Source: Ignavibacteria bacterium
GTDB taxonomy: Bacteria; Bacteroidota; Ignavibacteria; Tepidaquicellales; Tepidaquicellaceae
NCBI GenBank assembly: GCA_028714695.1
Contig: JAQTLX010000004.1
Coordinates: forward strand, 1 to 64,000
Direction: 5' to 3'
Length of the DNA: 64,000 nt
Shown here one piece after another: positions 37,578 to 43,917 of this stretch (position 1 is the first letter of the stretch; every line of letters starts with the position of its first letter). Under the pieces are notes generated by a model that was given only the letters and a program-made list of their open reading frames with translations, ran no database searches and had not been told where the DNA came from. A program made the translations under genes and the position numbers.

Positions 37578-37601
37578 ATTATTGATATAAATAGAAAATG
37601 A

Positions 37602-37627
37602 AAAAGGGCTGTTGACAGCCCTTTTTT
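37602..37627. terminator. Bidirectional intrinsic terminator
   Basis: AAAAGGGCTGT, TG, ACAGCCCTTTTTT: stem with A- and T-runs, between the convergent cDPGS-like gene and valS. Confidence 0.92.
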
Positions 37628-37657: not shown

Positions 37658-40297
37658 TTACAGCATTTTTGAAATCTTCTCGTATTTCTCGCGCGCTTCT
37701 TTCAGTTTCTGATTTTCATTATCAATCACATTCTGCGCGGCTTTCGCAAGGAAATTCTCGTTATTTAATTTCTTCTCGAGACCTGCAATATATGATTTAA
37801 GGCTGTCAAGTTCTTTAACCAATTTATCTTTGCCTTCATCATTCTTCATTTTCGGGATTTCATTTTTGAAGTTGAATTTCACCGCAAAGAATTCTCCGTT
37901 TGTGCCTTTGAAATCACCTGTCGATTTTTCTATGACAATTCCGCCTTTATTGTTTATCAGTAAGTGCAGAGATTTTTTCAGATTGTCAACGCTGTAGGAT
38001 GCCGTTGTATTCAACGGTTTGATGCATATATCAAATTCATACTCATTTATTGCCGTGTATTTCGCGCGTTCATTTCTTGATGTAGTCACGAGGTCTTTGA
38101 ACAGGTCGAATAATTTTTCCGAGTCTTCATCAATTTTTGAAGCATCAAGTTTGGGATAATCGATAAAAGAAACCGACTTCCCTTCCCTGCTTTCATCGAG
38201 CAGATGCCATATTTCTTCCGTGACAAACGGAATAACCGGATGAAGCAATCTGAGAACGTTCTCGTAAATGCCGAGCGCTCTTTCGATTGTTTTCTTTGCT
38301 GCTGATTTATTCTGGTAGATGCTTACTTTTGTAAGTTCGATATACCAGTCGCAGAAATCACTCCATACGAACGAGTAAAGCGATTTTGTATAATCGTTTA
38401 ATCTGTATGAGTTTAGATAAAATTCAATATCTTTTATCGTTTCGTTGTATCTTGAGTCAATCCATTTTTCTACAAAATTGTATTCGGGTTCGGAATTTCC
38501 CAGACCGCTTTCCGAATTTATTTTATCGCGGGTCATCATCAGGAAGCGTCCCGCATTCCATAGTTTCGTAATGAAATTTCTTCCGATTTCTGTATTCTTT
38601 TCGTCGAAAAGTACGTCGCTGCCGAGAGGCGCGAGATATACAATCGTAAATCTAAGCGCGTCCGTGCCGAACCGGTCCATCAGAACGAGCGGATCCGGAG
38701 AATTCCCGAGCGACTTTGACATCTTTCTGCCTTTGCCGTCTCTGACGGTTGAATGGAAATATACATCCTTGAATGGAATATCGTTTCTGTATTCAAGTCC
38801 TGAAATAATCATACGGGCCACCCAGAGGAATATTATTTCCGGCGCTGTCGATAGAAAATCCGTAGGATAATAGTAATTCAGGTCTTTATTGTCTTTATCT
38901 TTTTCGCTGTTTTCCCATCCAAAAACACTGAACGGCCACAACCACGACGAGAACCACGTATCGAGCACGTCGGGGTCCTGATTCCAGTTTTCGATATCAA
39001 CAGGCGGGGTTGTTTCGCAGTATATATCGCCGGTTTCTTTATGATACCAGATAGGAATTTGATGTCCCCACCAAAGTTGTCTTGAGATGCACCAGTCTCT
39101 TACGTTATCGAGCCAGTGATAATAAGTTTTTGTCCATTTATCGGGGTGAAATCTGACTTTTCCGTCTTTTACAACCTGTATTGCGGGTTTTGAAAGTTCT
39201 TTCATTGAAACAAACCACTGGTCGGAAAGGAAAGGCTCGATTACCGCACCGGAACGCTCCGAAATGGCAACGTTATGTATGTAATCTTCCTCTTTAACGA
39301 GATACCCTTCTTCTTTCAGTTTTACAAGAATCTTTTTGCGGGCTTCATTTACAGACATTCCCTGAAATTCTAAACCGTTTTCATTGATTTTTCCGTCTTT
39401 TGTTAGAATATTTAGCGCTTCAAGTCCGTGTCTCTGACCGACTTCAAAGTCATTTATATCGTGCGCGGGCGTAATTTTTAATGCGCCTGTACCGAAAGTA
39501 ACATCTACGTATGAATCGAATAAAACCGGAATTTCCTTATTCACCAGAGGAAGAATAACCTTCGCATTCTTATATTTTTCGTATCTTTTATCCGCCGGAT
39601 TTACAGCAACAGCAGTATCGCCAAGCATAGTTTCAGGACGTGTCGTAGCAATTATTAATGCTTCATCCGTACCTACTATAGGATACTTCACATAATAGAG
39701 TTTATCCCTTTTTTCTGTATAACTTATCTCATCATCGCTTAAAGCAGTTTGTGTTATATTGTCCCAATTTATAATCCTCTTGCCCTTATAAATATATCCT
39801 TTTTTATAGAGGTCAACGAATACCTCTTTTACTGCTTTTGAGAGACCTTTATCGAGTGTGAAACGTTCTCTTGACCAGTCAACTGATACTCCGAGTTTTC
39901 TTAATTGCTTAAGAATAATACCGCCGTACTTATCTTTCCAATCCCAGATAAGTTTAACGAATTCTTCCCTGCCGAGGTCATATTTTGACTTTCCTTCGTT
40001 CTTTTTTAATTCCTGTTCGACTTTTATCTGAGTAGCAATTCCTGCATGGTCCATTCCAGGCACCCAGCAGACTTCAAAGCCTGACATTCTTTTCCAACGG
40101 CAATATATATCCTGAATTGTATTATTTAAAATATGCCCTATATGGAGCATACCTGTAACATTAGGGGGTGGAATTACGACTGAGTACTTCTCTTTTTCGG
40201 AATTCACGGAAGACTTATAGATTTCATTATCTTCCCAAAACTTACGCCATTTTTCTTCGATTTCTATAGGTTCGTACTTTGGAGGAAATTCTTTCAT
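37658..40297 (-). CDS. valS: Valyl-tRNA synthetase
   Basis: 879 residues, class I synthetase charging tRNA-Val. HIGH motif in PPNVTGMLHIGHILNNT, KMSKS in GRKMSKSLGNSPDP, editing domain with TTRPETMLGDTAVAV, and a C-terminal coiled-coil tRNA-binding arm. ATG at 40297 is preferred over a TTG two codons earlier. It follows the parA-like gene with only 6 bp between them and is the last gene of a leftward run that begins with, or upstream of, tRNA-Val(CAC). Confidence 0.97.
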   Translation of the reverse strand: MKEFPPKYEPIEIEEKWRKFWEDNEIYKSSVNSEKEKYSVVIPPPNVTGMLHIGHILNNTIQDIYCRWKRMSGFEVCWVPGMDHAGIATQIKVEQELKKNEGKSKYDLGREEFVKLIWDWKDKYGGIILKQLRKLGVSVDWSRERFTLDKGLSKAVKEVFVDLYKKGYIYKGKRIINWDNITQTALSDDEISYTEKRDKLYYVKYPIVGTDEALIIATTRPETMLGDTAVAVNPADKRYEKYKNAKVILPLVNKEIPVLFDSYVDVTFGTGALKITPAHDINDFEVGQRHGLEALNILTKDGKINENGLEFQGMSVNEARKKILVKLKEEGYLVKEEDYIHNVAISERSGAVIEPFLSDQWFVSMKELSKPAIQVVKDGKVRFHPDKWTKTYYHWLDNVRDWCISRQLWWGHQIPIWYHKETGDIYCETTPPVDIENWNQDPDVLDTWFSSWLWPFSVFGWENSEKDKDNKDLNYYYPTDFLSTAPEIIFLWVARMIISGLEYRNDIPFKDVYFHSTVRDGKGRKMSKSLGNSPDPLVLMDRFGTDALRFTIVYLAPLGSDVLFDEKNTEIGRNFITKLWNAGRFLMMTRDKINSESGLGNSEPEYNFVEKWIDSRYNETIKDIEFYLNSYRLNDYTKSLYSFVWSDFCDWYIELTKVSIYQNKSAAKKTIERALGIYENVLRLLHPVIPFVTEEIWHLLDESREGKSVSFIDYPKLDASKIDEDSEKLFDLFKDLVTTSRNERAKYTAINEYEFDICIKPLNTTASYSVDNLKKSLHLLINNKGGIVIEKSTGDFKGTNGEFFAVKFNFKNEIPKMKNDEGKDKLVKELDSLKSYIAGLEKKLNNENFLAKAAQNVIDNENQKLKEAREKYEKISKML

Positions 40298-40303
40298 TTT
40301 CAA

Positions 40304-41080
40304 TTATTTATTGACTTCAATATTTTTATTTATAACCTCGTACGCTAAATTCATGTATGCCATAGCGCCTTCGGAATTTATTTTGTAAAGACAAAGCGGT
40401 TTTCCGTAGAATGTCGCTTCATTCAATAGATTTGTTGTTGGAATCGTTGTTTCGAACATATACCCGCCGTATTTTAGCCTTAATTCCCTTTCGGAAATTT
40501 CCGTCACTTTTGAGTTTTGTTCATACATCGTGAGCAAAATGCCTTCGATATCAAGATAAGGGTTGGAAACTTCTCTGACCCAGGAAATATACTCAAACAA
40601 TTTATCGACTGCTTCGAGCGAAAAATGCCCGGATTTTACAGGAATAAGCACTGAATCGGACGCCGTAAGCGCATTCAATGTGATGCCGCGCAATGTCGGC
40701 GGGCAATCGAGAATAAGATAATCGTATTTATTCCTTATGTCTTTTAATGCATTTTTCAAAACGACCCGGTTTTCTGTCATTTTCGCGAATTTTTCATCGT
40801 TTTGAATAGAATTAATATTCGCAGGAATGAAATCGAGGTAGGGTATTTCGGTATTATGAATCGTATATTCAATTGATTTTGAGAAATTGAATATATCGGC
40901 GATACCGCCCTTTATTCTATCGGGCGTAAATCCCATAGCGACGGCAGATGAACCGTATGGGTCGACATCTATCAGCAATGTCTTCTTCTCCGATAATGAG
41001 AGTGACGCAGCCAGATTAACTGCAGTTGTAGTCTTCCCGACCCCGCCTTTCGAAATACAGATACTAATTACCTTACCCAT
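40304..41080 (-). CDS. ParA/Soj-family ATPase without adjacent ParB
   Basis: 258 residues with the deviant Walker A KGGVGKTT at about 10-17 and DYLILDCPPTLRG (Walker B). Related to chromosome-partition ParA but also to orphan ParA/MinD-like ATPases that position other cargo. No parB or parS-like repeat is seen nearby, so chromosome segregation is not implied. ATG at 41080; overlaps the FAH gene by 8 bp, so translation is probably coupled. Confidence 0.88.
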   Translation of the reverse strand: MGKVISICISKGGVGKTTTAVNLAASLSLSEKKTLLIDVDPYGSSAVAMGFTPDRIKGGIADIFNFSKSIEYTIHNTEIPYLDFIPANINSIQNDEKFAKMTENRVVLKNALKDIRNKYDYLILDCPPTLRGITLNALTASDSVLIPVKSGHFSLEAVDKLFEYISWVREVSNPYLDIEGILLTMYEQNSKVTEISERELRLKYGGYMFETTIPTTNLLNEATFYGKPLCLYKINSEGAMAYMNLAYEVINKNIEVNK

Positions 41081-41756
41081 CAACTTTAACTTTTAAATTC
41101 AATAAATTATTTCCAAGGACAGCATGCAGATTGTCTCCTCTGATAACTTCGCCGACACCTTCAGGGGTACCCGTGAAAATCAAATCCCCTTTTTGTATAT
41201 AGAATATACTTGATATATAGGATATTAACTTACATATATTAAATAACATTAAACTTGTATTTCCATGTTGTTTCTCAATACCGTTTATTTCGAGTTTCAA
41301 ATTCAAATCCATAGGATTTATTTTCTTATCCGCACGGATTATATTACTAATCGGAGCGGAAGAATGGAAACCTTTGGCGGCTGTCCAGGGCAGACCGGAT
41401 TTTTTTGCTTCTGACTGAACGTCTCTGAGAGTCATATCCAGACCAATGGCATACCCGAATATAAATTCTTCTGCCTCGTTTTCAGGAATTTTACTGCCGT
41501 TTTTTCCTATTGCAACAACAAGTTCCGTTTCATAATGAACCGAATTTGAAATCGGTTTGCCTTCCCAAACTGGAATATTAATTGATTCACCATCTCCTAT
41601 GATAGCCGAATTCGGTTTCAGAAAAACCACAGGTTTTTCGGGAGCAGATGTCTGACCGAATTCCTTTATATGGTCAAGATAATTTTTCCCGATACAGTAA
41701 ATGTTGTTTACTTCAAAATGCTCGTTGGAACCGGCTATTTTAATAAATTTCGGCAT
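41073..41756 (-). CDS. Fumarylacetoacetate hydrolase family protein
   Basis: 227 residues of the short FAH type (acylpyruvase / oxaloacetate decarboxylase-like). IYCIGKNYLDHIKEFG, then the metal ligands in HYETELVVAIGKNG (Glu..Glu), FGYAIGLDMTLRDVQ and the FTGTPEGVGEV loop. Mg-dependent cleavage of a C-C bond in a beta-diketone or oxaloacetate-like substrate; specificity unknown. ATG overlaps the pyrC stop by one base. Confidence 0.9.
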   Translation of the reverse strand: MPKFIKIAGSNEHFEVNNIYCIGKNYLDHIKEFGQTSAPEKPVVFLKPNSAIIGDGESINIPVWEGKPISNSVHYETELVVAIGKNGSKIPENEAEEFIFGYAIGLDMTLRDVQSEAKKSGLPWTAAKGFHSSAPISNIIRADKKINPMDLNLKLEINGIEKQHGNTSLMLFNICKLISYISSIFYIQKGDLIFTGTPEGVGEVIRGDNLHAVLGNNLLNLKVKVDG

Positions 41757-43042
41757 TATAAATCGGAAAAATAAATTTTACCATTATTTATTATGGCAAA
41801 AGGCTTGCAAGCCGTCTGAAATCCGTCGAATGGAGTATTTTTCCCTTTCGATTTAAATTTTCCGGAATCTATCGTCCATTCAGCATCGAAATCCACGATA
41901 GTAAAATTTGCTTTTTCCCCTTCCGCAATTTGTATTCTCGGAAGATTCAGTAATCTTCTCGGATTATCGGAGAGTTTTTCAATCCATTTATCTACGGAGA
42001 TTATGTCTTCATCAACGAGATACTTATACGAAAGCCCGATACAGGTTTCAAGTCCGACAATACCGAACGGCGCTTTCGAAAGTCCTTTTGATTTCTCCAA
42101 TGCAGTATGCGGAGCGTGGTCAGTGCATAAAACTTCAATCGTATCATCCTGAAGTCCCTGAATTATTTTATTGACGTCTTTATCGCTTCTCAGCGGAGGA
42201 TTCATTTTCGCATTCGGTCCGTTTACAAGTACATTTTCATCTGTCAAAATAAAATGGTGCGGGCACGCTTCGGCGGTAATATATTTATTATTTTTTCTTG
42301 CTTCTCTAACGATATCGACAGTTTCGCCGCATGAAATATGCTGGACGTGATATCTGGAATATTTAATCGAATCGGCAAGCGATATATCGTTTTTCACTGT
42401 GACAATTTCACTGTCTTCGGAAATACCTTCAACTTGAAGTTGTTCGGAGACTTTTCCTTTATGGATGGCGCCGTTGGCGCTCAATTTTATATTTTCTGCA
42501 TGCTGCATAAAAGGAGTACCGTTGACAGCGGAAAACTCAAGTACGCTCTTTAGGATTTCCGGATTTGAGACAGGACTGCCGTCGTCAGTAAAAGCGGCCG
42601 CGCCTTCATCGAAAAGAATCTGAAAATTTGCCGGCTCAGCATCTTTTCTTAATTTCGATGCGCAGGCAGAGACAAATACATCTACAATATTATCTTTTGC
42701 TTTTTCAATAATGTACCTGATAGTTTCGGGTTCATCAATCGGAGGATTTGTATTCGGCATACAAAGTACGCCTGTGAATCCGCCGTTGGCAGCGGACTCG
42801 CAGCCTGAGATGATATCTTCTTTTTCGGTCTGTCCTGGGTCCCTGAAATGAACGTGCATATCGAAAAAGCCCGGCATTAGTGTTTTGCCTTCACAGTCAA
42901 AGATGTTGATATCAACCGGCAAAGATGATTCATCTATAACACCGATTTTACTAATAATACCATCGGCGATATAGACGTCGAAAACACCTTTCAGATTATC
43001 TTTCGGAGAAAGGACAAAAATATTTTTTAATAATATATGCAA
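41756..43042 (-). CDS. pyrC: Dihydroorotase
   Basis: 428 residues, class I dihydroorotase of pyrimidine synthesis. Zinc-binding MPGFFDMHVHFRDPG, and VLCTDHAPHT late in the protein. The frame can be extended to 43090 but that lies inside the tRNA gene, so the start must be later; TTG at 43042 (MHILLKNIFVLSP) is the best candidate and lies 15 bp after the tRNA. No Shine-Dalgarno is seen. No other pyrimidine gene is nearby. Confidence 0.92.
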   Translation of the reverse strand: MHILLKNIFVLSPKDNLKGVFDVYIADGIISKIGVIDESSLPVDINIFDCEGKTLMPGFFDMHVHFRDPGQTEKEDIISGCESAANGGFTGVLCMPNTNPPIDEPETIRYIIEKAKDNIVDVFVSACASKLRKDAEPANFQILFDEGAAAFTDDGSPVSNPEILKSVLEFSAVNGTPFMQHAENIKLSANGAIHKGKVSEQLQVEGISEDSEIVTVKNDISLADSIKYSRYHVQHISCGETVDIVREARKNNKYITAEACPHHFILTDENVLVNGPNAKMNPPLRSDKDVNKIIQGLQDDTIEVLCTDHAPHTALEKSKGLSKAPFGIVGLETCIGLSYKYLVDEDIISVDKWIEKLSDNPRRLLNLPRIQIAEGEKANFTIVDFDAEWTIDSGKFKSKGKNTPFDGFQTACKPFAIINNGKIYFSDL

Positions 43043-43057
43043 ATGTATAAAAAAAAG

Positions 43058-43131
43058 TGGGCAATACTGGATTCGAACCAGTGACCTCATCCGTGTGAAG
43101 GATGCGCGCTAACCAGCTGTGCCAATTGCCC
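43058..43131 (-). tRNA. tRNA-Val (anticodon CAC)
   Basis: Minus strand, 74 bases including discriminator A. Acceptor GGGCAAT pairs with ATTGCCC; anticodon stem CATCC/GGATG with loop TTCACAC gives anticodon CAC (valine codon GUG); T-arm ACTGG-TTCGAAT-CCAGT is perfect. CCA is not encoded. It lies between mlaE (21 bp upstream) and pyrC (15 bp downstream) on the same strand without a terminator. Confidence 0.97.
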
Positions 43132-43152
43132 AATGTGTAAATTTACAAACTA

Positions 43153-43917
43153 TTATCCAATAAGAAAATTCCATAATATAGCATCAAGAATCAGAATCAT
43201 CGCCGCGCAGATAACGAATGATTTAATAGTGGATTTGCCGACGCCTTCTGCTCCGCCTGTGGTTTCAAATCCGACATAGCAGCCGATTGTAGAGATTGCA
43301 AATCCGAAGAAAAGCGCTTTAATACAAGCGGTGTTAACATCCTTGACCTCAAAAGTTTTTCTGAAACCGTTAATGAACACGCCTCCGGATACATCGAGGA
43401 ATGCTACAGAAACGATATACGAACCGAGTATTGCAACGGTACTCGAAAATATTACGAGCACGGGCATTACCAGTATTGTCGCTACAATCCTCGGCATAGC
43501 GAGATACCTCAGAGGATTGATAGCCATGGCTTCGAGAGCGTCTATTTGTTCGGTAACTTTCATTGTTCCGATTTCCGCGCTGATTGAAGCCCCTACCCTG
43601 CCGGCAAGTACGATAGCAGTAAGCACGGGTCCGAGTTCGATGATAATTGCTTTTGGAGTTGCGGTACCGAGAATACTCAGGGGAACCATTCCTGCCATTT
43701 GATACGCTACCTGCCATGCTGATACGGCACCGGTAAATAATCCGATGATTGACATGAGGGCAAGCGAATCAACGCCGATGTGGACCATCTGGTCGAGAAT
43801 AAGTTTTCTGTCCTTGAACACTCTGGGGAAACTGATAATTACTCCTCCAAGCAGGAAAAAATAATCTTCAATATCCTTAAAAAAAGTGTAGAGTTTTCTT
43901 AAAATTAGATTTAGCAA
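43153..43917 (-). CDS. MlaE-family ABC transporter permease
   Basis: 254 residues. MlaE/YrbE signature helices: IGLFTGAVSAWQVAYQ, ELGPVLTAIVLAGRVGASISAEIG and the MKVTEQIDALEAMAINPLRY coupling helix. Works with an ATPase (MlaF) and an MCE protein (MlaD) in phospholipid transport between membranes. Neither partner gene adjoins it here. Only TTG at 43917 fits as start. The tRNA gene follows 21 bp downstream. Confidence 0.9.
   Translation of the reverse strand: MLNLILRKLYTFFKDIEDYFFLLGGVIISFPRVFKDRKLILDQMVHIGVDSLALMSIIGLFTGAVSAWQVAYQMAGMVPLSILGTATPKAIIIELGPVLTAIVLAGRVGASISAEIGTMKVTEQIDALEAMAINPLRYLAMPRIVATILVMPVLVIFSSTVAILGSYIVSVAFLDVSGGVFINGFRKTFEVKDVNTACIKALFFGFAISTIGCYVGFETTGGAEGVGKSTIKSFVICAAMILILDAILWNFLIG

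Follow-up and report, generated by a model that had tools for sequence, protein, structure and literature searches.

In a family of Ignavibacteria, a gene for tRNA-Val(CAC) stands where relatives carry pyrB in the gene run mlaE-pyrB-pyrC-(FAH)-parA-valS. We consider it on balance probable that the tRNA gene replaced pyrB in this older operon, was inherited thereafter and is co-transcribed down to valS, and that its pairing with its own synthetase is a by-product of the landing site. According to this explanation the arrangement would have been inherited in the family, probably since one event. In the source genome (G000) transcription of the tRNA would start at a Bacteroidota-type promoter within the 21 nt that separate it from mlaE, possibly supplemented by transcripts reading through from mlaE, and would continue across pyrC, FAH, parA and valS as far as the terminator. 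The 5' end of the tRNA would be released by RNase P and its 3' end by a further enzyme. The tRNA would add a dispensable reader of GUG codons, and its site upstream of the cognate synthetase would not be a control device. The locus is a clear case of a tRNA gene occupying the slot of a protein gene in a conserved operon, with both arrangements present in living relatives.

Organization of the locus

The features around valS in the window, that is, the whole stretch of 64,000 nucleotides analysed from G000 (3.85 Mb, 96% complete), are listed in Table 1.

Table 1. Features of the tRNA-Val(CAC)-valS locus in window coordinates
Feature	Position	Strand	Remarks
mlaE-like permease, upstream neighbour	43153..43917	-	PF02405 and TIGR00056; stop 21 nt before tRNA
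putative -7 promoter element TAGTTTGTA	43144..43152	-	starts directly after mlaE stop codon, 21 nt upstream of tRNA
tRNA-Val(CAC)	43058..43131	-	ARAGORN and Rfam RF00005; C74 encoded at 43057, C75-A76 not encoded
spacer, A73 to pyrC start	43043..43057	-	15 nt, with T8 tract
pyrC, dihydroorotase, TTG start	41756..43042	-	TIGR00857, 380 bits (cut-off 279)
fumarylacetoacetate hydrolase (FAH) family protein	41073..41756	-	PF01557
ParA/MinD-like ATPase (parA-like)	40304..41080	-	PF13614; ATG 41080; adjoins valS in neighbouring family too
valS, valine--tRNA ligase	37658..40297	-	TIGR00422, 1008 bits (cut-off 612)
intrinsic terminator-like hairpin 3' of valS	37601..37626	-	terminator scan

The tRNA-Val with anticodon CAC was found on the minus strand both by ARAGORN, which also added C74 after A73 (43058), and by Rfam RF00005 (62.9 bits, gathering threshold 29). 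The original prediction had read the minus-strand order as tRNA-Val, pyrC, FAH, parA-like and valS with gaps of 15, -1, -8 and 6 nt, and ARAGORN, Rfam, the open reading frames and the profiles all confirm it: by open reading frames and sequence, pyrC overlaps FAH by 1 nt and FAH overlaps parA-like by 8 nt, while valS begins at ATG 40297 or TTG 40303, leaving a gap to parA-like of 6 or 0 nt. Two further claims hold as well, namely that the unit contains no terminator, since the scan of the minus strand lists none from the tRNA down to valS and one good site 3' of valS, and that only a short leader of 15 nt precedes a TTG start, the TTG of pyrC being aligned with the ATG or GTG starts of relatives. 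Moreover, the minus-strand run extends upstream of the tRNA, which had gone unmentioned, through mlaE, identified by profile scan, and a CBS-domain protein and a nuoI-like gene, both named by reading the sequence. The RNA fold of the tRNA region was uninformative (z -1.22).

Conservation of the locus across relatives

The valS neighbourhoods of 56 relatives were fetched and their genes and tRNAs mapped. Conservation of the order in related genomes, named with the original prediction as a check on it, was found within the family: among the 28 family genomes for which a stretch was available (counting G000 but not G021), the tRNA lies between mlaE and pyrC in 14, a gap of about 930 bp takes its place in 11, and two have neither; the stretch of G027 misses the place, so that neither G027 nor G021 was given a state. 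The tRNA-bearing count includes G001, whose contig starts inside the tRNA, G019, whose contig ends before mlaE, and G008, whose tRNA (called GAC) contains an NN join and was counted with its anticodon not trusted. In fact the G008 tRNA (G008:C364; L042:6902-6975 after orientation) has a 5' part of CAC type and a middle of GAC type, probably because a scaffold join falls at the tRNA.

When the positions were checked singly, the gap was filled by pyrB in all 11 gap-bearing genomes; mlaF had been considered as its content and was ruled out. In the tRNA-bearing genomes and the two with neither, this pyrB is absent and only distant carbamoyltransferases occur elsewhere (at most 34% identity, in a search over these genomes except G028). 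The tight gene order is kept across genera, with FAH absent from several genomes, both tRNA-bearing and pyrB-bearing. In the neighbouring family f2, parA and valS are adjacent too and pyrC-FAH lie mostly about 2 kb further upstream, and a tRNA-Val at the valS locus occurs in 0 of 14 stretches of f2 and 0 of 15 of other families of the class. A tRNA-Val lies near valS in 7 of the 80 loci taken from named genomes; all 7 belong to the family and come from the same assemblies, so they do not count as independent cases.

Proposed origin of the tRNA in the pyrB slot

The tRNA-Val(CAC) probably took the place of pyrB in the older run once. In a tree of five operon-region proteins, 13 of the 14 tRNA genomes form one clade (bootstrap 99, SH-aLRT 99) and G006 is left unplaced; a single clade of all 14 is not rejected (p-AU 0.4). 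An earlier quick tree grouped G006 with the pyrB genomes (SH-aLRT 95), from which a second origin or a transfer would be possible. One gain accompanied by the loss of pyrB is the simplest reading; the direction, from pyrB to tRNA, is what we infer.

As for the source of the tRNA gene, neither BLAST nor two anticodon-arm patterns, which could miss a diverged gene, revealed a tRNA-Val(CAC) in those family genomes that lack the operon copy. An origin from tRNA-Pro(CGG) was suggested by BLAST (78-80% over positions 8-66) and rejected, because in full alignment it is no closer than others: the body identity to tRNA-Val(CAC) is 75% for Pro(CGG), 75% for Gly(GCC) and 73% for other Val tRNAs. A mobile origin was also considered; in plasmid and phage collections the matches were all just of tRNA size, and the best one from phages (87%) lies in an unannotated record.

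Predicted transcription and processing of the unit

Upstream of the tRNA gene in G000, the motif TAGTTTGT at -21 is of the form TA-N1-2-TTTG-Y, the Bacteroidota -7 promoter type. This form precedes 11 of the 40 other G000 tRNAs at a distance of up to 34 nt (mean 1.05 and maximum 5 in 1000 shuffles), and its strict version is present in 8 of 13 orthologous upstream regions (shuffle mean 0.77, maximum 4). The loose version is found in 9 of 13 (shuffle mean 2.8), a count that the shuffle maximum equals, and no motif precedes the tRNA in the remaining four regions, those of G006, G008, G026 and G028. With respect to the single transcription unit originally proposed, the conserved order and gaps without room for internal promoters speak for it, and co-transcription itself, of the tRNA with the genes from pyrC to valS, is likely when judged on the sequence.

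Alternatively, the tRNA could be transcribed separately, as a short RNA that stops at the U8 tract, with pyrC to valS read from elsewhere. In G000, G001 and G002 the tRNA is immediately followed by the tract CTTTTTTTT, and in G003 and G004 by six T; in G000 the tract could end many of the transcripts, which counts against our preferred explanation. However, the scan lists no terminator-like site there, a separate promoter would not fit into the 15-nt gap, other genera lack the T tract, and many other tRNAs here have, by eye, an ordinary hairpin terminator downstream, so that separate units appear quite unlikely. A different possibility, unlikely as well though deserving of somewhat more weight, is that a nearly leaderless pyrC message arises when the tRNA is excised from a longer transcript running from mlaE to valS. 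The distance from A73 to pyrC is 15 nt in G000 and G001, 13 in G002, 22 in G003, 23 in G004, 32 in G006, 12 in G008, 28 in G009, 9 in G011 and G023, 134 in G018, 2 in G019, and 3 in G026 and G028. In G026 and G028 the spacers are near zero on both sides of the tRNA (21 and 15 nt in this window), as the mlaE stop is only 4 and 3 nt before it, respectively; with 3-4 nt before and 3 nt after, there is no room for a promoter, the motif is missing, and the tRNA would be expected to derive from the mlaE transcript or from a promoter inside mlaE. At a spacer of 2-3 nt, moreover, the folded acceptor stem, if uncut, would cover the start codon, which implies that the tRNA is cut first or that translation is unusual. 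Against this possibility, the motif before the tRNA in 9 of 13 genomes makes a long transcript unneeded there, the spacers vary from 2 to 134 nt, and RNase Z was not found above the curated cut-off in any of 8 (TIGR02651) or 9 (NF000801) genomes, whereas both searches matched in all 14 controls and exceeded the cut-off in 9 of these.

RNase Z would be the obvious enzyme for the proposed cut making the 5' end of pyrC; the best G000 match in the RNase Z searches belongs to another metallo-beta-lactamase (MBL-fold) group. Every tRNA gene of G000 (41) and of G028 (42) encodes C74, whereas the full CCA is encoded by only 1 and about 5 of them, respectively. Taken with the absence of RNase Z above cut-off in 8-9 genomes, the C74-encoding tRNAs suggest that 3' maturation may be unusual. 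A pyrC message made by processing would be most interesting in the genus of G026 and G028. Spacers of 2-3 nt raise the problem of how a tRNA is freed without destroying the pyrC start in genomes without a recognisable RNase Z. One rather improbable answer would be a bacterial form of the tRNA punctuation seen in mitochondria, in which a tRNA with flanks of 2-4 nt is cut by a 3' nuclease other than RNase Z, yielding a leaderless pyrC-to-valS message; were this true, the yield of that message would be tied to the maturation of valS's own tRNA.

The pairing with the cognate synthetase

The original prediction suggested that co-transcription would tie together the supply of the tRNA and the enzyme, while doubting whether the pairing was more than chance, and this doubt looks right. 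Selection for joint supply would fit the retention of the pairing in half of the family genomes and the observation that tRNA-Val(CAC) is seen in the family only in this operon. However, genomes lacking the tRNA conserve the same gene run just as well (11 with pyrB, 2 with neither), so the association does not go beyond the general conservation of the run; two to three genes of unrelated function separate the tRNA from valS; and only one of three Val isoacceptors is concerned, the one that relatives do without, tRNA-Val(CAC) being absent from 13 family genomes and hence reckoned dispensable. Besides, tRNAs heading genes are ordinary in the family, and no special cause has to be invoked for the pairing with valS. 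For example, tRNA-Val(GAC) precedes the non-cognate thrS in 28 of 29 family loci (L248-L276; in G000, G000:C7:196757-198329), where one of the 28 lies 1.2 kb away, the sole miss begins at a contig end and a second partial G004 locus was left out; tRNA-Leu(TAG) precedes clpX in 26 of 27 (L218-L244), with spacers from 13 nt up; and several other G000 tRNAs precede genes at 7-80 nt. Since the run is kept without the tRNA and another tRNA-Val heads a non-cognate gene, purposeful coupling is unsupported, and we regard it as highly doubtful.

By our preferred explanation, in which the pairing is a by-product of the landing site, the pairing is real and inherited and probably arose accidentally, not as a control circuit. 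It amounts to one evolutionary event, which chance could give: with about 41 tRNAs, 4 next genes each and about 3400 genes (an assumed number), we estimate about 0.05 such pairings per genome. GTG codon usage offers no clear reason for the tRNA: in operon-region genes, GTG makes up on average 0.14 of the Val codons in 13 genomes with the tRNA and 0.12 in 14 without. Nevertheless, the pairing has been retained in several genera whose sequences diverge widely, which is compatible with some selection on it, and selection may have kept the pairing once it had formed.

Comparison with known systems

In E. coli, tyrT-tpr, the thrU cluster with tufB, and metY-nusA join tRNA and protein genes on one transcript, which is cut by RNase P and other nucleases. 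The present locus likewise joins a tRNA gene with protein genes, co-directional, tightly spaced and with no terminator between, in one predicted transcript; unlike those operons, it ends with the gene for the cognate synthetase, and in 13 of 14 genomes 2 to 32 nt separate the tRNA from the start codon. By annotation only (anticodon CAC; TIGR00422), tRNA-Val(CAC) is the substrate of valS. Another known case is pylT-pylS, where tRNA-Pyl and its synthetase form a functional module dedicated to a special amino acid; in both cases a tRNA shares a locus with the synthetase that charges it, whereas here the tRNA is an ordinary isoacceptor and unrelated genes lie between. With tRNA punctuation in animal mitochondria, some relatives share a tRNA abutting protein genes with hardly any spacer (on both sides in G026 and G028, downstream in G019), while the spacers in this window are 21 and 15 nt; the family differs in that no RNase Z was found above cut-off in the 8 or 9 genomes searched, that most genomes have a promoter motif before the tRNA, and that processing is here putative. 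Among the titles and abstract beginnings covered, no paper on co-transcription of a cognate tRNA and synthetase surfaced; we make no claim of absence from print, and the locus would belong among the known tRNA-mRNA operons.

Within the same family, tRNA-Leu(TAG)-clpX and tRNA-Val(GAC)-thrS also have a tRNA shortly upstream, family-wide and with an AT-rich leader, though those tRNAs are not cognate to the following gene. Separately, tRNA-Gln(TTG) of G000 (G000:C16:27273-27343) seemingly lies inside a ribosomal protein run, just before rpsE, a gene named by reading the sequence.
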